Shown one piece after another: positions 1 through 9,809 of a stretch of DNA of 9,809 nt. How positions within the stretch are numbered: position 1 is the stretch's first letter; each line of letters begins with the position of its first letter. The translations under genes were made by a program, and so were the position numbers. Origin of the DNA: Candidatus Latescibacterota bacterium (GTDB taxonomy: Bacteria > JAAXHH01 > JABIQT01); NCBI GenBank assembly GCA_018667995.1, contig JABIQT010000024.1, positions 1 through 9,809 on the forward strand. The letters are read 5' to 3'. The notes below the pieces were generated by a model. That model ran no database searches, was not told the DNA's origin, and was given only the letters and a program-made list of their open reading frames with translations.

Positions 1-1080
1 GGTCGGACTCTCGTCAGGCATCAGCTTCATCTGCATGCTGCTCGCCGTGGCCAACTCTGCCTCGAGCATCTCGTTGTGAGCTCGGACAATTTTCTGAGCC
101 TCTTCCAGGCTGTGGTTGCGTTCCTCGATCTCGGCATTGGCTTGAGCCAAGTCAGCCGACCGACGTTCGATTCGCTTCAGCAGGCTCCGGATGATCGATC
201 CGGAAATCAGCACAAAGCCGAGCGAAACGAGGAGGGTCAAGCGGCCGGCTCGGCGGGGTTTCTTGAGGTAGGGTTCGGCATTCATATAGACGGCCACCGA
301 CCACGGTGGTTCATCCATTTCCGCCCGGATGGTCAGAATTCTCTGCTCGTCCTGATCATCACCGACTTCTTCTATCAATGCCCGTTTCGCCGGGAGTAAT
401 TTACTGTCGCTCTGATATATCAGACGTTCAGTAGCTCGCTCGTGGATGGCAAGCGTCATGTGCTCGGTGAGCCTGACTGGCAGAACCTCTTCCAAAGGGA
501 CGGCGGCGACAACAGTTCCTGTAAGTCCTCTCATATTAATGGCACGACTCAAAAAGACGACTTGTTCTCCTGCTTGCGTACTGTCGACACGAACGCTGAG
601 ATCGTTTCCCGAACTGGCCACTGTAGCTCTAGCTCTCTCGAGAATATTGGAATTCGTTCGACCGACAATAGGCAACCCCGTGCTCTGGCCAGTCATATCT
701 TGATCGGCGTGGTGGAGAAGCCTCCCAGTGGAGGAAAGGTATCCAATGGTCATGTACGTCGTCTCGGCATTCTGACAGAACCAGTTAACAAAATCGGCAA
801 CTTCAGAATGATCATCCGGGCCATCTTCCCGGTGCGCATAAAGGCTCTTCAGGGCTCTGTTTCTCGATAAGAGCTTTGTTTCATGGTCAATTATGGGGAA
901 CGCCCTTGAAATACTGCCTTCCGTCTCACGCGCCACATCCTCGATTTGCTGTCGCAGTAAGCTCTCTACAGAAGAGATCGACTGGGAATAAGAAAAAATG
1001 AGAATTCCAGAGAATACAATAAGGGCTGCTCCGAAGAAGAAACCCGTAGATCTAACGTAATTCTTGGCGTTCAGTGTCAA
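1..1080 (-). CDS. Transmembrane SpoIIE-type phosphatase B, sensor half (C-terminus off the left edge)
   Basis: The frame stays open from 1080 to base 1 (360 codons) with no stop. Visible are a TM helix at about residues 12-31, an extracytoplasmic Cache-like domain at about 35-280, a second TM at 281-299 and a coiled coil at about 301-355. The last is followed by MQMKLMPDESP, the usual entry into a SpoIIE/RsbU PP2C domain, which lies outside the window. It is a paralogue of the phosphatase at 7167-9005: both have a PPW motif just before TM2 (EMDEPPW here, EVGDPPW there), a GxVVxxxxLEEV/LEDV segment in the sensor, and nearly the same coiled coil (EEAQKIVRAHNEMLE versus EEANQIVSHHNQMLE). By family it would dephosphorylate a STAS protein under control of an external ligand. 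The likely start is TTG at 1080, overlapping the TGA of the upstream propeller gene; CTG at 1074 is an alternative, and no in-frame ATG occurs before about residue 110. The PP2C activity is inferred, since its metal-binding residues are not visible. Confidence 0.85.
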   Translation of the reverse strand, partial: MTLNAKNYVRSTGFFFGAALIVFSGILIFSYSQSISSVESLLRQQIEDVARETEGSISRAFPIIDHETKLLSRNRALKSLYAHREDGPDDHSEVADFVNWFCQNAETTYMTIGYLSSTGRLLHHADQDMTGQSTGLPIVGRTNSNILERARATVASSGNDLSVRVDSTQAGEQVVFLSRAINMRGLTGTVVAAVPLEEVLPVRLTEHMTLAIHERATERLIYQSDSKLLPAKRALIEEVGDDQDEQRILTIRAEMDEPPWSVAVYMNAEPYLKKPRRAGRLTLLVSLGFVLISGSIIRSLLKRIERRSADLAQANAEIEERNHSLEEAQKIVRAHNEMLEAELATASSMQMKLMPDESPT

Positions 1081-2843
1081 GGGAGGCTCACGGACTGATT
1101 GATGAGATTCCTGACGTCGGCTATCCAAGTGTGTGTGTACCATTCGGTGACCAAGTAGAAAGCTACCCGAGTGCCAGAGGGTGAGACCGATGTGCTGATT
1201 ACTTGATGGCCCGGTTTTTCCTCGAAGAGGAGCCTCTTCGAGGTGCCATCGGCGAGACGCTGAATAAGAAGTCCTTGACTCGCACTCATGCCGCCTGCTG
1301 TAAAAAACGAAGCGTCATCTGATATATCAGTAAACCAGCCAGCGTTCGATGATATATATTCCGGAGGGCTAGCCCATGTAGTGGCAAGTTTCCAAAGGCC
1401 TCCCCAACCATCGTTGCCCGCGTCCTGTGGCCCCTGTGTCCGGGGGCTGATGTAGTAGAAATACTGAGAGTTCTCTGCCCAGCCAACCGTGAAAGACTGG
1501 TCTCTATCTTCGAATAGAGGATTCGGCTCTCCTCCGTAAGGTGATACTTTCCAAAGGGTATTTCTATTTTCGAAGACAATCCACTCATCATCAGAAGACC
1601 AGTGCGGACGGGTGATATATCCCGGGAGCGCGAGCGTAATGGGATACGGATCAACTTCGTCGAGACTTGAAGTCCACAGTGCATTCCCGTGAACGTAGGC
1701 AATTTCATCTCCTGAAGGGGAGAACGTTTGTCCGTTTCCTGGCGAAATCTCGCGCACGTCCCCCCCTGTTATTTCTACGATAGAAATCGTAGTGTCCTCG
1801 ACAAAAGAGGTGAAGGCGATGAAACGCTCGTCCGGCGACCATGATGGGGTTTGACGACCGATGACATTCATGGCGCCTCCGGCCTGAGTCACGTCGGCCA
1901 ATATTGCGAAATTCTGTCCCGTGGTATCCACGATGGCAAGATGTGCACGTGCATCTTGCTCTGCCAATGGGTGACCAGAGTAGAGAAGTGCTTCACCATC
2001 GTGGTCCCAGGCGACGGTGCGAGCACCAGTCACCAAGGATTCATCGGTGACTTGAACTGGGCTCCCTCCTTTAGCCCGGAGAACATAGATATGCGGCCCG
2101 GGGTCACTCTGAAAGGCTATCCACTCGCCATCTGGAGACCAAGCAGGATAAAAACCGATTACGCCGTCAGAATTGAGTGGTTCAACAGTTCGGCTATCCA
2201 AGGAGAGTATCCAAAAACTACCATTCCCGTGTGTCTCCCCAGAGAAGAGGATACTGTTTCCGTCGGGAGACCAGGCAGGAAAAATAATATTACGTGCTTG
2301 ACAAAGCGTATCCGGTTCCTCCCCGGAGAGATTGTACTTGAGAAGGTGATCAGTATTGATGCCGTACTCGGTTACCGCCAACGCCTTGCTATCGGGCGAC
2401 CATGTAGGCGACACCGCAAATGCATCGGCGCCTAGGTGACGGTCAGTGATGCTTGTTACGACACCAGTCTCAATATGAACAGTCCAGATACCGGTCTCTC
2501 CGCCGAGATCCGAAGAAAAGGCAATAAGTTGACCGTCAGGTGACCATTTTGGGTATGCCTGAATATGTGATCGTGACTCGACGATCAGAGGTCGAGGGTT
2601 CCCACCGTCGCGGTCCATCACCCATAGTCTCCGATTGCCAATGTTCTGCGGATCGACCTTTAGATAGGCAATCAGGTGGCCATCTGGCGAGGAAATTGGC
2701 TCTTGATGGAGCTCCTCAGTCTGAAATTGGGTGAAGTAGATCTCATTTTGGGCAATAGGATCGGAAAAATCCCCTGCGAGACATGGAGTGGAACACAATA
2801 ACACACAGGCGAATACGGTAATGCTCGGGCGAGATGAATTCAT
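1077..2843 (-). CDS. Secreted TolB/PD40-type beta-propeller protein 1
   Basis: This 588-residue protein has a signal peptide of about 23 residues (hydrophobic core VFACVLLC, likely cleavage after CLA), so export to the periplasm is expected. The C residues do not form a good lipobox. The mature part is almost wholly PD40/TolB-like propeller blades marked by WSPDG-xxIAF motifs: near residues 51, 100, 148, 191, 235, 279 (WDHDG), 335, 374 (FSPSG), 415 (WSSDD), 455 and 553. That suggests two stacked propellers or one large one. No peptidase triad or other catalytic domain follows the blades, unlike the S9 peptidases that share this fold. The start ATG at 2843 has AGAGGA six bases upstream. The gene follows propeller 2 by 61 bases, and its TGA overlaps the TTG start of phosphatase B, implying translational coupling. 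Likely a binding or scaffold protein; the ligand is unknown. Its C-terminal tail (WIADV..L......LP) resembles that of propeller 2. Confidence 0.88.
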   Translation of the reverse strand: MNSSRPSITVFACVLLCSTPCLAGDFSDPIAQNEIYFTQFQTEELHQEPISSPDGHLIAYLKVDPQNIGNRRLWVMDRDGGNPRPLIVESRSHIQAYPKWSPDGQLIAFSSDLGGETGIWTVHIETGVVTSITDRHLGADAFAVSPTWSPDSKALAVTEYGINTDHLLKYNLSGEEPDTLCQARNIIFPAWSPDGNSILFSGETHGNGSFWILSLDSRTVEPLNSDGVIGFYPAWSPDGEWIAFQSDPGPHIYVLRAKGGSPVQVTDESLVTGARTVAWDHDGEALLYSGHPLAEQDARAHLAIVDTTGQNFAILADVTQAGGAMNVIGRQTPSWSPDERFIAFTSFVEDTTISIVEITGGDVREISPGNGQTFSPSGDEIAYVHGNALWTSSLDEVDPYPITLALPGYITRPHWSSDDEWIVFENRNTLWKVSPYGGEPNPLFEDRDQSFTVGWAENSQYFYYISPRTQGPQDAGNDGWGGLWKLATTWASPPEYISSNAGWFTDISDDASFFTAGGMSASQGLLIQRLADGTSKRLLFEEKPGHQVISTSVSPSGTRVAFYLVTEWYTHTWIADVRNLINQSVSLP

Positions 2844-2904
2844 CGAGAATCCTCTACGAATGGGCGCAAGATCATCTGGATAGAGAAATGCCGGTGCGGA
2901 GTCT

Positions 2905-4827
2905 TTAAGGAAGAGCAGTGGCCATCAGGTAGGATACGTCGCGCGACCAGATTGATACTGAAGCTTGTTCTTCAATCTTGAGATAGACCAACATTGAACC
3001 ATCATTGGAGAAAACAGGACGAGTCGCATTGGCCAGGAACTCTGCGGCTTTCTCTGTCTGACCATCAAGCATCAACATGGTCCATTTGCCCGGGGGGCCT
3101 TCTTGAAGGAACACCTGTCCGTCTTGATTCCTGAAAGGTCGCCAGCAGTGCTTCTTGCTACCGTAGACGAGTCTGGATTCCCCAGAATCACGATTTAAAC
3201 TGCGAACTTGAACCATGCCTCCCGTGACGGCTCCAGAATAAAGCACCTCCCGATCAGTGGTCCACATTGGTTGGGGGCCTTGCCAATCGTCATCGGGACT
3301 CACAGCTGTGGTTTCCCCTGAATCAAGGTCGTGAATGTAGAGATGATTATTTTCGCGAAAAAGTAAGGCCGTATCGTCGGTGGAAAATTGCAGAACACTC
3401 ACAGGATGTCCGTTGAACGTTTCCTGATAGGCCATGTTATCTACGCGATCGTATATCCAGATGTCCTGTTCGAGGCCAAAAGCAACAAGTTCACCGTCAT
3501 GGGACACGGCCAACCGTTGAATCTGGCTTGGCGTTTCGTATAGCACCTCAGTGCTCGTATTCTTTGTGACATCGTAGGCTACGATTCGACTAACGCCTGT
3601 TACACCTCCCGCTTCAGCAGAGCTTCGAAGTGAATCTCGCTTACAGTATGCAATGACTGAATTAGATAGCCAGGCTGGCGCATTCGATCCAGGCGTGGTC
3701 GGCCAGTCAGCCTGAACTTCGCGAATCTGTCGATCATTGACCGTAGCGATGACAAGTGTTGAGTCGGATCGCCCATCCGAAGGTCCAGCAAGAAAGCTGA
3801 CGTAGGCTCCGGAAGGCGACCAACTTGCCCACTGAGCGAATACCGTTGGAGACATGGACAGCACGGTCCATTCAATCATTGTCCGCATGTCACGCACAAT
3901 GACTTGACCCCTCTCGACTTCTGCTTGGTGGTATAGAAGCCGGTGCGATGCTCCATCCCAGACAGGCCCAAACAGTTGGCGATCTTCAGGTGGGAGCACT
4001 TCGCGGGGTTCGCCACCGATTGATGACACGATGTAGGTCTTAGGAGCAGAATGAAAAGCAATCCAGTTGCCATCCATAGAAAGTCTCGGAAAGGCAAATT
4101 CCATCTCCTCATTCTCACTTGAGACGATGGTGTCTGTCTTGCCGCTTTCGAGGCGGATTCTGACCAGATAGCGACGCTTGTCTCTCTCCATTCTATATAG
4201 AATGGAGAGACCATCACTGGACCAGGAAGGAAAAGCGATGGAAGCATTGTCCTCCTCAGTTACCTGCTCGACTGCACCATTCGTCAAATGATAGGTGAAC
4301 AGGTTGGACTGGTTCTCGTCATCACCGATGAGATTTGGATATATGATCCTTTCCCCGTCAGGTGACCAATCCGCTTGAGCATACCAGACATCAGTTGCCT
4401 CTACATCAAAAAGTCGGCGCAAGGATGCGCCATTTATGTCGACGAGATAGACCCCAGACGTTCCATTACGATCTGAAACAAACAAGATACTCTTGCCGTC
4501 TGGAGACCACCGCGCACATACGTCCCCCCATCTTCTCATCGTGGTATCTGGTGCTGTGAGCTGACGTTGTTTTCCTGTTTTTCGATCAAAAATCCAAATT
4601 GTTGATTGTTCCCAGTTTTCTGTTACCGACACGGAGGCTGCAATGTATTGCCCGTCCGGTGAAATGTCTGGATGATGCATCGACAGCTCTGGCTGATCCG
4701 ATGGCGCACTCAGTTCGAGAACCGGCTCCTGCGCCGTCGCCTGGTCCTGCCACGATGCCATGAGGGATAGGGCCATCCATAGCGCGAAAGTCCACCGGAA
4801 CGCAGCGGGATATGAGGGAACTGGCAT
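2905..4827 (-). CDS. Secreted TolB/PD40-type beta-propeller protein 2
   Basis: The protein is 640 residues from ATG 4827. This start is chosen because AAAGGA lies nine bases upstream and because it gives a compact signal peptide (hydrophobic FALWMALSLMA, cleavage probably after ATA). An in-frame ATG at 4845 adds six residues but has no ribosome binding site. The mature protein carries PD40/TolB-type blades (numbering from 4827): ISPDGQYIA near 55, WSPDGKSILF near 107, WSPDGERIIY near 154, WSSDGLSILY near 202, then LSMDGNWIAF, WSPSGAYVSF, VSHDGELVAF, FSTDDTALLF, WTTDREVLY and FSNDGSMLVY. Weak blades fill the gaps. No enzyme domain is appended. It is a paralogue of the next gene at similar length and with the same kind of tail (WSRDVSYLMATALP). 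It lies 84 bases after the STAS gene on the same strand. By fold it is a periplasmic binding or interaction protein; a role as signal receptor for the adjacent sensor phosphatase is inference. A perfect 28-base palindrome lies within the coding sequence at 4183-4210. Confidence 0.88.
   Translation of the reverse strand: MPVPSYPAAFRWTFALWMALSLMASWQDQATAQEPVLELSAPSDQPELSMHHPDISPDGQYIAASVSVTENWEQSTIWIFDRKTGKQRQLTAPDTTMRRWGDVCARWSPDGKSILFVSDRNGTSGVYLVDINGASLRRLFDVEATDVWYAQADWSPDGERIIYPNLIGDDENQSNLFTYHLTNGAVEQVTEEDNASIAFPSWSSDGLSILYRMERDKRRYLVRIRLESGKTDTIVSSENEEMEFAFPRLSMDGNWIAFHSAPKTYIVSSIGGEPREVLPPEDRQLFGPVWDGASHRLLYHQAEVERGQVIVRDMRTMIEWTVLSMSPTVFAQWASWSPSGAYVSFLAGPSDGRSDSTLVIATVNDRQIREVQADWPTTPGSNAPAWLSNSVIAYCKRDSLRSSAEAGGVTGVSRIVAYDVTKNTSTEVLYETPSQIQRLAVSHDGELVAFGLEQDIWIYDRVDNMAYQETFNGHPVSVLQFSTDDTALLFRENNHLYIHDLDSGETTAVSPDDDWQGPQPMWTTDREVLYSGAVTGGMVQVRSLNRDSGESRLVYGSKKHCWRPFRNQDGQVFLQEGPPGKWTMLMLDGQTEKAAEFLANATRPVFSNDGSMLVYLKIEEQASVSIWSRDVSYLMATALP
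4183..4210. repeat. 28-base perfect palindrome inside the propeller 2 gene
   Basis: The left half TCTCTCCATTCTAT (4183-4196) is followed directly by its exact reverse complement (4197-4210); the symmetry breaks at the next base on each side (C and C). On the mRNA it could form a stem of about 12 pairs with a four-base loop. It encodes part of a blade strand and the basic turn after it (around ILYRMERDKRR). Whether it is a protein binding site, an RNA hairpin or chance cannot be told from sequence. Confidence 0.9.
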
Positions 4828-4911
4828 ATCTACAATTCCTTTCATGAGGTTCGGAGCCGGACGTGGGTGGGGTGGATTGCCCCTGAACGGGCCACCTTCC
4901 GCCGCATCTGG

Positions 4912-5262
4912 TCAGGCTGCGGCGAGCGCGGCGAGGGCTTCCTCCTGGTCGCTGTACATCCCGGCCAGTTCCTTGAGCCCCATGATCTGAAAGGTCTTGG
5001 CGATGGTTTCGGAAAGACGACAGAAACTGAGGCTCCCTCCCTGTTCATCGAGCACTTCGATGATTTCGATAATGATCGCCACACCCACGCTGTTGACCAT
5101 GCGGCAATCTCGCATGTCGATCAGGACCAGAGAGACCCCGTCGTTGATCAAGCCACTGCACTCCTCCGAAATTGCCTCAGCGCTCTTTTCGTTCACGTAG
5201 CCGGGGGCCGTGACGATAGCGACCTTGCCATTGACGGTAACCGGAATTGATTCTGTACTCAT
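4912..5262 (-). CDS. STAS-domain anti-sigma factor antagonist (SpoIIAA/RsbV-like)
   Basis: This 116-residue protein is a single STAS domain, close to the usual family length. It starts with the typical beta strands (VTVNGKVAIVTAPG), then LVLIDMRDCRMVNSVGVAIII. Ser58 in the MVNSVG motif matches the phosphorylated Ser of SpoIIAA/RsbV. By family it is a cytoplasmic switch: phosphorylated by the RsbW-like ATPase and dephosphorylated by SpoIIE-type phosphatases. In the unphosphorylated form it binds the ATPase and frees that protein's other partner. It follows the ATPase gene by 63 bases, as in classical spoIIAA/AB and rsbV/W pairs but in reversed order (kinase first). ATG 5262 is preceded by GGAG about 11 bases upstream. 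The C-terminus ends in an Ala-rich helix (EEALAALAAA). Confidence 0.92.
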   Translation of the reverse strand: MSTESIPVTVNGKVAIVTAPGYVNEKSAEAISEECSGLINDGVSLVLIDMRDCRMVNSVGVAIIIEIIEVLDEQGGSLSFCRLSETIAKTFQIMGLKELAGMYSDQEEALAALAAA

Positions 5263-5325
5263 CTTGGTAGGTTCTCCAGACCGATGGAATCTTCGATGTG
5301 TTCGGGGAATTGGTAAGGACAGGGC

Positions 5326-5733
5326 CTAACGGTATTTGCTCATCTTGACGAGGGTGCCAGAGGGGCTCGAAGCGATGTCGACTTCGTCCATCAATTCCGC
5401 GATGAGCGTCAGCCCCCAACCTCGTTTCTCACCCTTGTCGCGTTTTTCCTCGATACGGCGCAGAGCGTCGTCCATATTAAAGCCGTCACCGCCGTCACTG
5501 ATCGTAATCGTCAGCGCCTTATCGCTAATCTTGAAGCTCAGATCGATTCGACGTTCGTGGCTGCGGCTATGCTCGAAGGCGTTGATACATGCTTCAATCA
5601 GCGCCATCTTGACTTCATCGATCTTTGTTGCTTCGAGTCCAATGAATGCCCCTAATGATTCGGCCACTGTCGTTGCCGTAAGCTCCATGTCGGGCAACAT
5701 TGGAATGCTGAGATCGACATCATCAGTTTTCAT
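5326..5733 (-). CDS. RsbW/SpoIIAB-like serine kinase, GHKL ATPase (HATPase_c_2)
   Basis: This 135-residue protein is a stand-alone GHKL ATP-binding domain, as in RsbW and SpoIIAB. The Bergerat fold motifs are all present: N box EACINAFEHS (Glu47, Asn51), G1 box ISDGGDGF (Asp80), G2 box RGWGLTLI near 104-111 and the G3-like PSGTLVKM near 124-131. There is no histidine-kinase dimerisation domain. By family it phosphorylates the STAS partner encoded directly downstream and sequesters a second protein, often a sigma factor. No sigma gene is visible here, so the second partner is unknown. The start is ATG 5733; a TTG directly before it at 5736 would add one residue. AGAGAGGCAGG upstream is the likely ribosome binding site. 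It follows the membrane-protein gene by 58 bases. Confidence 0.92.
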   Translation of the reverse strand: MKTDDVDLSIPMLPDMELTATTVAESLGAFIGLEATKIDEVKMALIEACINAFEHSRSHERRIDLSFKISDKALTITISDGGDGFNMDDALRRIEEKRDKGEKRGWGLTLIAELMDEVDIASSPSGTLVKMSKYR

Positions 5734-5791
5734 CAATAACCTGCCTCTCTGGCTGGGTAGGCGTCTGCAAATTGGACAACCCCTGCCGAGC

Positions 5792-7165
5792 TCAATGCTC
5801 GCTATGCAGAACGAAGAAGGGGATGGAGAAGGGAGGGGCGTTTGGGGTCTGGTTGAGGAGGTTCAACTGGTGCGGCCCCGGAGGAAGGTGATGGACGGGA
5901 ACGACCGAATAGAGGATCGGCCTTCCCGACCACGACGTGATCATCCATTGAGGCGGTGCGATTGGCGTCCCGTCAATGGCAACGCCGATCCGCTCCGCGA
6001 AAAGGGAAGACGACGGCAGATGATCGGGTCTTTGTACATCTATGCCTGTAGCCGCAAGGTACCCCTGATTGAGGAAAATTTCCAGGTGCCCTTCCTCCAC
6101 TCGCATTTTGCCCAGCGCAGGGCTGTTTAGGCTCGTATTCGGTGAAAGCCGCTCGACATACGTATAATCGCCATGGCTCGAAAAGGAATCCGGTAAGATC
6201 ACTCCGCTGGCGAGGCAGATCACCGGTAAACTCGATACGACCACGGCCCGGATCGGTGACCGCGGTAGAAGTACCGCTCGATAGTAGTAGAAGATCTCAA
6301 GGAGCGACTGGCGCCAGAGGGCAATGTCCTCGCTTTGGGTCACCCGCAGGAACGACCACAGGATCACCAGCCCGATTGCATAGGCCAACGCCGTATACCT
6401 GGCGAGAGCTTCCGCGTTGCTCCCCAAATCAGTGCCGACGTAGGTGATAGCATAGATCGACGCGGTGGCCAGGGTGTGACTCCCCACCAGCCAGGTTGTC
6501 CACATGGCCAAACTGAAGAAGGCGCTGAGCCAGACGCTGTAGGCCTCGCTCGAAAGGTGCTCGATGCGGATAGTCAGGCGAACGGCTGTGTCGGGTGCTG
6601 TCAGGTGCTTGTAGAATCGCGATGTCAGAGCCCCGTGGAGCCGGGTTCGATTCACACCGCTCGGATAGGCGAAGCCAAGACCAACGAGTCCGATCCAGAG
6701 GGATCTCAAGAGAAGGTGAGCAAAGATCCCCAGACGGAGAATCCAAATCGCGAAGAAGCTGGCACTGCAGAGCACCTCGATCAGGTAGACGGGCAGGAAA
6801 CTCGACAGGAGCCAGAGACTCGCTTCCATGTCACCGTGGTCGATGGATAGGAGTCCCGCCAGCAGCCCGACGGTGATGACGATCTCAGTGTGATAGGAGA
6901 TCGTCCTCACCTCATGGATATAGTTGACCTCATCGGGCTCCAGTTCCTTCGGATTCACGCCGAAGCTTCTGGGGGTACGCGGCACCGGCCAAGCTTTACG
7001 TAACAGCCCCCCGACCCGGCCATTCTCAGAGGCTGTGAGAACGGCCGTGAGCCAGCCCAACGTCGCCCCGATGATCATCCCCACCACCGCCCCATACGGT
7101 AGCAGGTCAGCGAGGTAGATGACCCCCGCCGTCGCACCGGTGATACTGTAGATTAGTCTCTGCAT
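5792..7165 (-). CDS. Multi-pass membrane protein of unknown family with C-terminal extracytoplasmic domain
   Basis: The family is not recognised. From ATG 7165 it is 457 residues. Hydrophobic segments lie at about 5-20, 24-43, 93-108, 115-142, 148-168, 209-246 (possibly two), 253-273 and 305-324, giving about seven to nine TM helices. After the last helix comes a soluble part of about 130 residues (325-457), rich in beta-strand patterns and ending with a strand-turn-strand stretch around LPPGPHQLNLLN, like a small Ig-type or carbohydrate-binding-like sandwich. A loop of about 50 residues (45-92) lies between TM2 and TM3. ATG 7165 begins one base after the TGA of phosphatase A (TGA-G-ATG) with GAGGAACTGAG upstream, so the two are probably translationally coupled. 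The frame stays open to 7276 but that part overlaps the phosphatase and lacks a better start. The position between phosphatase and kinase genes suggests a role in the same signalling route, for example as a sensor, transporter-like receptor or the regulated output; this is inference. Confidence 0.85.
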   Translation of the reverse strand: MQRLIYSITGATAGVIYLADLLPYGAVVGMIIGATLGWLTAVLTASENGRVGGLLRKAWPVPRTPRSFGVNPKELEPDEVNYIHEVRTISYHTEIVITVGLLAGLLSIDHGDMEASLWLLSSFLPVYLIEVLCSASFFAIWILRLGIFAHLLLRSLWIGLVGLGFAYPSGVNRTRLHGALTSRFYKHLTAPDTAVRLTIRIEHLSSEAYSVWLSAFFSLAMWTTWLVGSHTLATASIYAITYVGTDLGSNAEALARYTALAYAIGLVILWSFLRVTQSEDIALWRQSLLEIFYYYRAVLLPRSPIRAVVVSSLPVICLASGVILPDSFSSHGDYTYVERLSPNTSLNSPALGKMRVEEGHLEIFLNQGYLAATGIDVQRPDHLPSSSLFAERIGVAIDGTPIAPPQWMITSWSGRPILYSVVPVHHLPPGPHQLNLLNQTPNAPPFSIPFFVLHSEH

Positions 7166-7166
7166 C

Positions 7167-9005
7167 TCAGTTCCTCGACAGCTCCGATGGAGCAGGCGCT
7201 GTGGAGGACTCCGCCCTGAGCACAACGACGGTCTGATCGTCCTCCTGCTTGCCGTCACCGGCAAAGCGCTCCACATCGTCGAGAACTCGCTGGATCAACT
7301 GTCGTGCCGACAGGGATTGTTTTCCAGCCTGCCGGATGACCTCACGTGTGCGATCGTAGCCGAACAACTCTCCTTCGGGGTTGGCAGCCTCGATGATGCC
7401 ATCGGAGCACAAAACCACGACGTCGCCAGGCTCGAGTGTGATCTCCGTCGTCCCGTAGGCCGACTCGGCGCGAACGCCGAGCGGAATCGCACTGAGGTCG
7501 ATTTCGTCCACCGTGCCGGTGCGGGTCCGGTAATGGTAAGGGAAAGGACAGCCGCCGTTGGAGATCCGCATCGTTCCAGTCGTGGAATGAAGTTCGCCGA
7601 TGCTGAAACAGATGAAGGTCCGCTTCTCGAGTACGCGATGCAGGGACTGGTTGAGTCGCTGCATCAATTCCTGGGGCTCGGGCGTGTACTCCACTTGCGT
7701 ATTCAGCAGGCCCGAAAAAACCATCGTGGGAATTGCCGCCTGCATGCCGTGACCGGTGACGTCCGCGAGACCGAAGAGAAGGCGGTCTTCACCGGGAGTG
7801 AAGTACTGGAAGAAATCTCCTCCCACCGCCTCTGCCGGTCGACAGTGGCCGACGATGTCATAGCCGGCAAGTTTTGGGTCGGATGTTGGCATCAGACGCA
7901 TCTGCATATCGTGGGCCGTCCTGAGTTCCTGTTCCAGCATCTGATTGTGATGCGAGACGATCTGGTTCGCTTCCTCGAGCGCCTCTGATCGATTTCGGAT
8001 GCGCGTGACGAGCACGTAGATGGTCAGTCCGCCGATGCTCACGAAAAAGATCGAGGCGACGATGAGTACAGTGCCCTGGAACTCTAACGGTCCGGTAAGT
8101 ATCCTAACGGTTGTGACCAGATCCCAGGGAGGATCACCGACCTCTTCGTGGGTGAGGAGGAAGCTTTCCTTATCGACGTCGAATCGCGTGGAAAAGTGTT
8201 TTTCGTCCGAGGTCTCGGATGCCCCACTCGAAAGTGGCCGGGCCAGGTCGGGCGCACCAGTCTCAAGGGCAATTCCCGTACGGCTGAGATCGTCTGAATC
8301 ATAGATCAGGTGTCGATTCTGCCGATCGTAGACGACCAGTCGTCGATCGATGCCTCCTGTCCAATCGATCACGTCTTCCAAAGACTGGTCGACGACGACG
8401 TGTCCGAGCAGTGCCTTCGTGCGCCGGTGGTTGATGTCGAAGAGGGTGCGCAGAACCATCGTCGAATCGGCCAGTGTGGCAACATGCACGTCCATCTCAC
8501 CCGAAGGCAGGGCTGTCAGGCTTCCACGAATAACGTTCGGTCCCGTCGCAGCGGCAGTTTCTGGCCCGACATCGGCAAACTGACCGAGGTCGACGACTTG
8601 CTCATCCTGCTGAAAATCGATCCCAACGATGGGGTTCCCGCGGGCGTCTAGGTAGCTGAGGCCGCGGATCGAAGGATTTTTCGTGCGTTCGAACCACCGG
8701 CGTGCAAAGACATCTAGGCTCTGTGCCAAGATGACGTGATCTGTCTCACCGGCGAATTGGCGCCGGATCCCCCGGCTGACATGGAGGATGCGGGCCTGAC
8801 GAACCAGGGTTTGGCGCGACTTCTGCAGGTGCGGTACGATACTGGCGTGTGAGGCCAGATTCTGTTGCTCGAAGGCTAGGTCGATCGCTTGGAAGACCAG
8901 CCGGTAGAACAGCAGGAAGAGTGTGGCCAAGAGCAGACCCGCGACTGCGAAGAACAAGGGAAGATGGCGCGTACGAATTGAATCAAACATACATACTCGA
9001 GGCAT
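7167..9005 (-). CDS. Transmembrane SpoIIE-type PP2C phosphatase A with Cache-like sensor domain
   Basis: The protein is 612 residues from ATG 9005. It has TM1 at about 15-37, an extracytoplasmic double-Cache-like sensor at about 40-308 (PAS-like strands GLSYLDARGNPIVGID and RLVVYDRQNRHLIYD), TM2 at about 311-334 and a coiled coil at 337-372. The catalytic PP2C/SpoIIE domain spans about 383-597. Metal-binding acidic residues are all present: GGD at 395-397, DVTGHG at 415-420, CSDG near 533-536 and EDD at 588-590, so an active Mn/Mg-dependent phosphatase is expected. By family it removes phosphate from the STAS protein encoded three genes downstream, under control of an external ligand. The start is uncertain: ATG 8990 (five residues shorter) is also possible and neither has a strong Shine-Dalgarno. 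It is the first gene of the cluster and the full-length paralogue of the gene at the left edge. No HAMP domain is evident; the coiled coil joins TM2 directly to the catalytic domain. Confidence 0.93.
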   Translation of the reverse strand: MPRVCMFDSIRTRHLPLFFAVAGLLLATLFLLFYRLVFQAIDLAFEQQNLASHASIVPHLQKSRQTLVRQARILHVSRGIRRQFAGETDHVILAQSLDVFARRWFERTKNPSIRGLSYLDARGNPIVGIDFQQDEQVVDLGQFADVGPETAAATGPNVIRGSLTALPSGEMDVHVATLADSTMVLRTLFDINHRRTKALLGHVVVDQSLEDVIDWTGGIDRRLVVYDRQNRHLIYDSDDLSRTGIALETGAPDLARPLSSGASETSDEKHFSTRFDVDKESFLLTHEEVGDPPWDLVTTVRILTGPLEFQGTVLIVASIFFVSIGGLTIYVLVTRIRNRSEALEEANQIVSHHNQMLEQELRTAHDMQMRLMPTSDPKLAGYDIVGHCRPAEAVGGDFFQYFTPGEDRLLFGLADVTGHGMQAAIPTMVFSGLLNTQVEYTPEPQELMQRLNQSLHRVLEKRTFICFSIGELHSTTGTMRISNGGCPFPYHYRTRTGTVDEIDLSAIPLGVRAESAYGTTEITLEPGDVVVLCSDGIIEAANPEGELFGYDRTREVIRQAGKQSLSARQLIQRVLDDVERFAGDGKQEDDQTVVVLRAESSTAPAPSELSRN

Positions 9006-9199: not shown

Positions 9200-9468
9200 C
9201 CCGTGCCAAGCGGTCCTTTTCCTGTTGACACGACGGACGTGGTGACGCTCAGTGTGTTTCAGCAGATACCCCTGTGTCCACCCGCCACGCGATTGCCGCA
9301 AGGGGACGCTTCAGCATGTTGAGTCACCCTGCGAGCAGTGTGCCGGCCTACGCTGGTCCATGATGCCCGCGACGAACTCATTGAAACTCGCTTTTGGCTA
9401 GTGGTGTGATGTCTGGGTAGGTTGCTAGTGGAGCGAGTCATCTGCAGCTGGTCTAAGGGGATGGTGTG

Positions 9469-9809
9469 ATGCGATCGTGGTGGTGCCCATATCGACTACT
9501 TCCAGCTGTTGTTCTGTCTGGCCTCACGCATCTCACCAGTTGCAGTGATCCCGCCTCCCCGGTGCCCAGAGGCCTGGAGAATCGATCGGTGGATTGTGGT
9601 ACCGCCATCCTCGACGGCCAGGATACTGTCCTTGTCCTCAAGGCCACAAAATGGCGTGGCGATGCGGCCGCAACGTTATTTACCGTGATGGCGCAGAGCA
9701 AGCGCAGATGCTCGAACCCTTCACTACTCAGAAGCCCGCGGGTAGCCCGAATCCACGGGACCTCTGGCGCTGGATGGAAAGATACGAACAAACGACCGGC
9801 GGGCAGCTA
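9469..9809 (+). pseudogene. Damaged DUF3604-family lipoprotein gene (off the right edge)
   Basis: ATG 9469 has AAGGGG eight bases upstream and opens a frame that starts with a lipoprotein signal: RLLPAVVLSGLTHLTSC, with lipobox LTSC followed by SDPASP. This frame stays open to the edge, but after about 9660 a different frame carries what looks like family-conserved protein: GRNVIYRDGAEQ followed by MLEPFTTQ and then NPRDLWRWMERYEQTTGG (9666-9806). I recognise this from memory as the DUF3604 pattern (RNVIxRDG ... NPEDLWxWMxxYExxTGG). The stretch just before it, in the third frame (SSRPQNGVAM, about 9625-9655), also fits the usual EWTSxPxGxNLHRNV context, which would place a one-base insertion near 9656-9668. 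The N-terminal part of the family with the GDLHVHT-type motif is absent, since only about 60 codons separate the lipobox from RNVIYRDG. The simplest reading is a gene with an internal deletion and at least one frameshift. A sequencing error could account for the frameshift but not for the missing part. Confidence 0.45.

Follow-up and report, generated by a model that had tools for sequence, protein, structure and literature searches.

Tandem pairs of predicted exported PD40 propellers and dCache-like membrane sensors in a bacterial partner-switching gene cluster

Exported PD40 propellers are common, and most lack an assigned role. Outside signals are known to reach partner switches in few cases, and RsbU of Chlamydia has a periplasmic sensor domain (PMC11619594). 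In the MtrAB-LpqB system of Actinobacteria, a secreted protein with a propeller domain is encoded beside a membrane sensor; this lipoprotein, LpqB, binds the outer domain of the histidine kinase MtrB and alters its signaling (PMC3353115). In Bacillus subtilis, the cytoplasmic alpha/beta hydrolase RsbQ activates RsbP, a SpoIIE-type phosphatase with a PAS sensor that acts on a STAS protein, and modules of the RsbQ-RsbP type are found with other outputs too (PMC12143880). A linker mechanism has been reported for RsbU (PMC12143880), and the SiaABCD system of Pseudomonas aeruginosa, which has a membrane sensor phosphatase and lacks propellers, has a diguanylate cyclase as its output (PMC8457831). 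Our literature search returned no paper on propellers together with partner switching or SpoIIE.

The window analyzed here, 9809 bp in length, spans all of one contig (C903) of a MAG (G000; 6.06 Mb, 1165 contigs, 85% complete). A contig of a Saanich Inlet MAG (G143), JABJJN010000102.1 (L005 below), matches it with 0 mismatches over 9793 bases and is longer, completing sensor 2 and adding propeller 3 and sensor 3. Like the Rsb and SpoIIA systems (RsbU-RsbV-RsbW and SpoIIE-SpoIIAA-SpoIIAB), the locus encodes side by side a SpoIIE phosphatase, a STAS protein with an acceptor serine, and a GHKL kinase with the expected motifs. Unlike them, it has several membrane phosphatases with dCache-like domains, separate propellers predicted to be exported, and one more membrane protein, and over the 13.7 kb of L005 it shows no gene for a sigma factor or another target.

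All seven open reading frames of the window are in place, closely spaced on the minus strand (Table 1), as a preliminary description made from the sequence had stated; the cluster that it took to end with them in fact runs on. Since the window is a whole contig of a fragmented MAG, the gene order past it is taken from L005 alone; the genes there are, in order, sensor 1, P0002, kinase, STAS, propeller 1, propeller 2 with sensor 2, and propeller 3 with sensor 3. For P0002, 7165 (457 aa) is a likelier start than 7276, the corrected starts of P0003 and P0007 are at 5733 and at a TTG at 1080, and P0005 perhaps starts at 4827. Both junctions previously described as coupled were recovered, namely, a 1-bp gap between P0001 and P0002 and a stop/start overlap of -4 bp (TTGA) between propeller 2 and sensor 2. 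Four junctions measure about 60 bp, sensor 2 and propeller 3 are 126 bp apart, and propeller 3 and sensor 3 are 3 bp apart. Promoters and terminator-like sites were not in excess over shuffled sequence, and an Rfam search gave no match. The linkers of sensors 2 and 3 share an exact repeat of 126 nt (L005:9653-9778 and 13565-13690, the first copy corresponding to about positions 16 to 141 of the window), which reflects either recent copying or gene conversion; L005 terminates within this repeat, which is a probable cause of the contig break. At the other end of the window, an open frame on the plus strand (9466-9807), divergent from the cluster and truncated by the contig end, has a lipobox-like N-terminus and no Pfam match.

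Table 1. Genes of the cluster in the window and on L005 (coordinates without a prefix are window positions)
Feature	Position	Strand	Domains and remarks
P0001, sensor phosphatase 1	7167..9005	-	TM, dCache-like periplasmic domain, TM, linker, SpoIIE
P0002, multi-pass membrane protein, C-terminal likely beta domain	5792..7165	-	Without Pfam/NCBIfam family
P0003, RsbW/SpoIIAB-like GHKL serine kinase	5326..5733	-	HATPase_c_2
P0004, STAS antagonist, predicted phospho-acceptor Ser58 in VNSVG	4912..5262	-	STAS
P0005, exported PD40 propeller 1 (predicted)	2905..4845	-	PD40; signal-like N-terminus ending ATAQ
P0006, exported PD40 propeller 2 (predicted), coupled to P0007	1077..2843	-	PD40; hydrophobic N-terminus 8-26
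P0007, sensor phosphatase 2, N-terminal part	1..1080	-	TM, dCache-like, TM, linker
P0008, full sensor phosphatase 2	L005:8714-10459		Residues 1-360 are 100% identical to P0007
Propeller 3	L005:10586-12490		
Sensor 3	L005 from 12494		Cut by contig end

In Pfam searches, P0001 matched SpoIIE (3.8e-47), P0003 matched HATPase_c_2 (6.6e-25), and P0004 matched STAS (1.2e-13); P0003 also matched the RsbW structure 6m36 (7.8e-11), and P0004 matched the RsbV and SpoIIAA structures. Against the RsbW and SpoIIAB models, P0003 reached 4e-18 and 1e-15, both under the equivalog cut-offs. The ATP site of P0003 has an N-box (IEACINAFEHS) and two G boxes (DGGDGF and KRGWGL), Ser58 of P0004 is invariant among relatives, and the metal-binding motifs of SpoIIE (GGD, ADVTGHG, SDG, and DDQT) are intact. 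The earlier claim of a GHKL, STAS, and SpoIIE core with all key motifs is thereby borne out. The second transmembrane phosphatase that had been listed with it is present in the window as its transmembrane sensor part; the contig ends in the linker, and the catalytic part, a full SpoIIE domain (9.6e-44), is found only in P0008 on L005. Sensor phosphatases 1 and 2 are related over their whole length (36%). Judged by its sequence, the partner switch itself is ordinary, and a target sigma factor may be encoded elsewhere.

The same contig thus occurs in two bins, G000 (GC content of about 0.52 in the fetched contigs) and G143 (about 0.59), and its tetranucleotide profile (0.896 to G000 and 0.864 to G143) is ambiguous on the host. 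Database records name Gemmatimonadetes for the G143 and UBA7889 (G144) bins. Among the fetched loci, which allowed few places to be compared, we found no other DNA shared by G000 and G143, and one EF-G-like gene had no match in G143. At least one of these two bins may be contaminated, possibly by mis-binning; the host is uncertain, and the conclusions on the cluster are independent of it. A fragment of UBA7889 (L006), 97.6% identical, covers P0002 to propeller 1 with the order kept. Propeller 1 is broken there into two frames, 208 and 426 aa long (L006:2109-4046), through either gene decay or an assembly error.

The preliminary description had suggested looking for the seven families in the same order in other genomes. 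We found no orthologue of the whole operon among 15 genomes of the host's taxonomic order, a comparison that might involve the wrong relatives, the host being uncertain. P0002 is missing from these 15 genomes, and their SpoIIE-GHKL-STAS sets are ordinary ones that include no PD40 propellers; some adjoin Mla-like transport genes. At three loci of this order (L051, L078, and L080), an EF-G-like gene is followed by SpoIIE-GHKL-STAS, and in two of them Mla-like permease and ATPase genes come next. P0002 matched no Pfam or NCBIfam family, in keeping with the earlier impression of an unfamiliar multi-pass membrane protein. Its distant relatives in four other genomes (21 to 24% overall identity) lie beside unrelated genes and never beside switch genes; P0002 was ruled out as a pointer to function because of these neighbors and because its structural model (mean pLDDT, 47) is too poor.

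The nearest kinase/STAS pairs are those of G582 (identities of 68% and 48%) and G579 (51% and 42%), and both lie next to SpoIIE phosphatases that contain a Reg_prop propeller of their own. A profile of the kinase, run over 386 further genomes, gave strong matches in 21 of them. Reg_prop-SpoIIE proteins also occur near the kinase matches in G586, G590, and G795, the G590 protein being called solely from its motif count and its similarity to that of G586, and such fusions are present in G000 and G143 too. The remaining kinase matches either are fused kinases, have a SpoIIE protein with another kind of sensor as neighbor, or lack SpoIIE in their vicinity, and no separate PD40 propeller genes were found in the neighborhoods of the kinase/STAS relatives. 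The Reg_prop-Y_Y_Y-SpoIIE proteins of G582, G579, G795, and G586 resemble the present locus in having a propeller feeding SpoIIE and, alongside, kinase and STAS genes that are close relatives of those here, and they differ from it in that their propeller is fused, belongs to Reg_prop rather than PD40, and comes without a dCache domain. Propeller, SpoIIE, kinase, and STAS are thus found together repeatedly, the propeller being fused in the relatives and a separate protein here; the argument is one of analogy, since Reg_prop and PD40 are different families. In G143 (C30), a single frame (L191:8389-8886) combines the C-terminal half of a P0003-like kinase with the C-terminal part of a P0004-like STAS protein and looks like the decayed remnant of a second switch. 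In G000 (C1123), a 665-aa protein (L189:399-2396) has a kinase domain 48% identical to P0003 together with GAF/PAS-like and cyclase-like regions.

We then analyzed the sensor domains and the propellers. P0001 has two TM segments, and its AlphaFold model, made from four sequences, is of moderate confidence (mean pLDDT, 65). In this model the sensor region matches the tandem CACHE structure 6mni (Z score, 15.5) and several dCache structures (Z scores, 14 to 15.5), and in P0007 a Pfam match to dCache_1 is weak (0.0018, below the cut-off). The sensor domain, predicted to be periplasmic between the TM helices, may have a two-lobed dCache-like fold. The best structural match of the SpoIIE region is the PP2C domain of SiaA (Z score, 19.4), which recalls the membrane sensor phosphatase of SiaABCD; the SiaA equivalog model gave 76 bits for P0001 with a cut-off of 700, outside that family. 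Two exported PD40 propellers had been proposed, and both P0005 (PD40, 2.5e-19; DPPIV_N, 3.4e-18) and P0006 (PD40, 2.4e-27) indeed belong to this family and have signal-like N-termini from which export is predicted. They are similar in sequence to TolB and DPPIV_N, with 149 and 150 bits against the TolB equivalog, below its cut-off of 343. As for the Pfam model of the LpqB propeller, Gmad1 (cut-off, 20.5 bits), P0009 (25.1 bits) and a propeller of G143 C27 (33.4 bits) pass it, a point of likeness to MtrAB-LpqB, whereas P0005 and P0006 gave no match up to an E value of 10.

To see where such sensors occur, we built a profile (A3) from four sensor domains and used it to search 386 genomes related to that of L005, scoring at most five candidates per genome, so that weaker sensors may be missed. 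Strong matches were found in three of the 386 genomes, G143 (four genes), G544 (one), and G542 (one, frame-shifted in the assembly); a profile of the full-length phosphatase retrieved mostly SpoIIE domains in other architectures. A PD40 propeller gene lies directly upstream of five of the six A3 sensor genes, in all three genomes, with gaps of -4, 3, 2, 14, and 5 bp; the exception is sensor 1 (P0001), which has none. The sensors 2 and 3 are tandem copies within one operon and not independent cases, and because the C27 sensor had gone into the profile as one of its four sequences, its own match is not independent either; its propeller was noticed before the profile was built. The outputs of the five paired sensors vary, with SpoIIE in sensor 2 and in G544 and HisKA-HATPase in G143 C27 (sensor 3 and the G542 sensor are cut by contig ends), and the propeller therefore follows the sensor and not the output. 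Since G143 has 26 propeller matches in 7.1 Mb, a propeller neighbor would be rare by chance. At another place in C27 (L138:4518-12583), a lipoprotein-like PD40 propeller gene overlaps by 4 bases a gene for a 2040-aa HAMP-GAF-histidine kinase-REC-REC protein, a kinase without a dCache-like sensor.

As far as sequences tell, exported propellers are repeatedly paired with dCache-like sensors, and with differing outputs, and this is a real and unusual feature; the pairing as separate genes is seen in three genomes only. The preliminary description had taken the propellers for periplasmic accessories of an outside-to-inside switch. Such a switch is well supported by the predicted dCache-like sensor, SpoIIE, kinase, STAS, and exported propellers, but the propellers seem to partner individual sensors rather than to serve the switch as general accessories. 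It had also staked its reading on related neighborhoods keeping the propellers with the switch genes, and here the outcome is divided: the PD40 genes stay with dCache sensors in three genomes, while the closest kinase/STAS relatives lie beside fused Reg_prop-SpoIIE genes. Outside-sensing partner switches are already known, and the separate secreted propeller is the only unusual part.

With moderate confidence, we propose that the operon is a partner switch read out by several membrane sensor phosphatases in parallel, and that most of these form a two-part sensor with an exported propeller. The propeller, probably translated together with its sensor, would dock, with or without a ligand, on that sensor's dCache-like domain in the periplasm; docking would alter the helical linker and switch the cytoplasmic SpoIIE domain, as in the linker mechanism of RsbU (PMC12143880). 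By the chemistry of these families, the active phosphatase would strip from Ser58 of the STAS protein the phosphate placed by P0003, and the dephosphorylated STAS protein would bind P0003, which would free its partner, a sigma factor or another regulator. The tandem propeller-sensor cassettes would sum several outside signals on one switch; P0002 would be a membrane component without a place in this scheme. By analogy, the closest counterparts of the two-part sensor with its switch are LpqB-MtrB and RsbQ-RsbP. In MtrAB-LpqB the output is a histidine kinase with the response regulator MtrA, and here it is a SpoIIE phosphatase, although the C27 cassette does have a histidine kinase. RsbQ-RsbP likewise has a separate partner protein for a SpoIIE-type phosphatase acting on STAS, but here the partner would be an exported propeller, and the sensor lies in the periplasm.

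The absence of a propeller beside sensor 1 speaks against the two-part sensor in that a propeller is not always needed, and it fits a reading in which the sensors detect small molecules alone through their dCache-like domains, and the propellers are co-regulated periplasmic proteins with TolB-like envelope or binding roles and carry no signal. dCache domains usually take small ligands directly, and the propellers' likeness to TolB and DPPIV_N points the same way. We consider this unlikely given the tight propeller-sensor coupling in five of six genes, three genomes, and two output types, and given that the nearest kinase relatives have SpoIIE neighbors with a fused propeller. It is very unlikely that two independent units, one a plain switch (sensor 1, P0002, kinase, and STAS) and the other a propeller-sensor cluster acting on another STAS protein, came to lie together by chance: the sensor phosphatases of both halves are related over their full length, the UBA7889 part keeps the order from P0002 to propeller 1, and terminator-like sites are no commoner than in shuffled sequence. 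The spacing of about 60 bp to either side of propeller 1, a third-position GC content lower in propellers 1 and 2 (0.50 to 0.52) than in the switch genes (0.63 to 0.72), and the lack of separate PD40 propellers beside the kinase relatives would nevertheless suit two units. Third-position GC content was dropped as proof of module exchange, because G544 has the same trend of propeller below sensor below catalytic part.

A further question concerns the output only and is compatible with the two-part sensor. Instead of a sigma factor, the kinase and STAS protein might act on a nucleotide cyclase, a diguanylate cyclase, or P0002, as in SiaABCD. The lack of a sigma factor gene in 13.7 kb, the cyclase-like domain that shares a protein with the P0003-like kinase domain in G000, and the SiaA match of the SpoIIE domain favor such an output; P0003, however, scores best against RsbW and SpoIIAB, and targets of RsbW-type kinases are often encoded elsewhere, so that we regard it as possible, if rather doubtful.

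Returning to the two-part sensor, we suggest, tentatively and with confidence just short of even, that an exported PD40 propeller with a dCache-like sensor is a general, exchangeable module of envelope-bearing bacteria, operon-coupled to SpoIIE or histidine kinases, a periplasmic counterpart of RsbQ-RsbP whose arrays bring several signals together on a single partner switch. Should the propeller be the part that receives the signal, phosphatases and kinases would have in it a common input component, secreted and exchangeable. This would extend the exchangeable sensor modules described earlier (PMC12143880) to the periplasm and would offer a direct route to testing the role of exported PD40 propellers.
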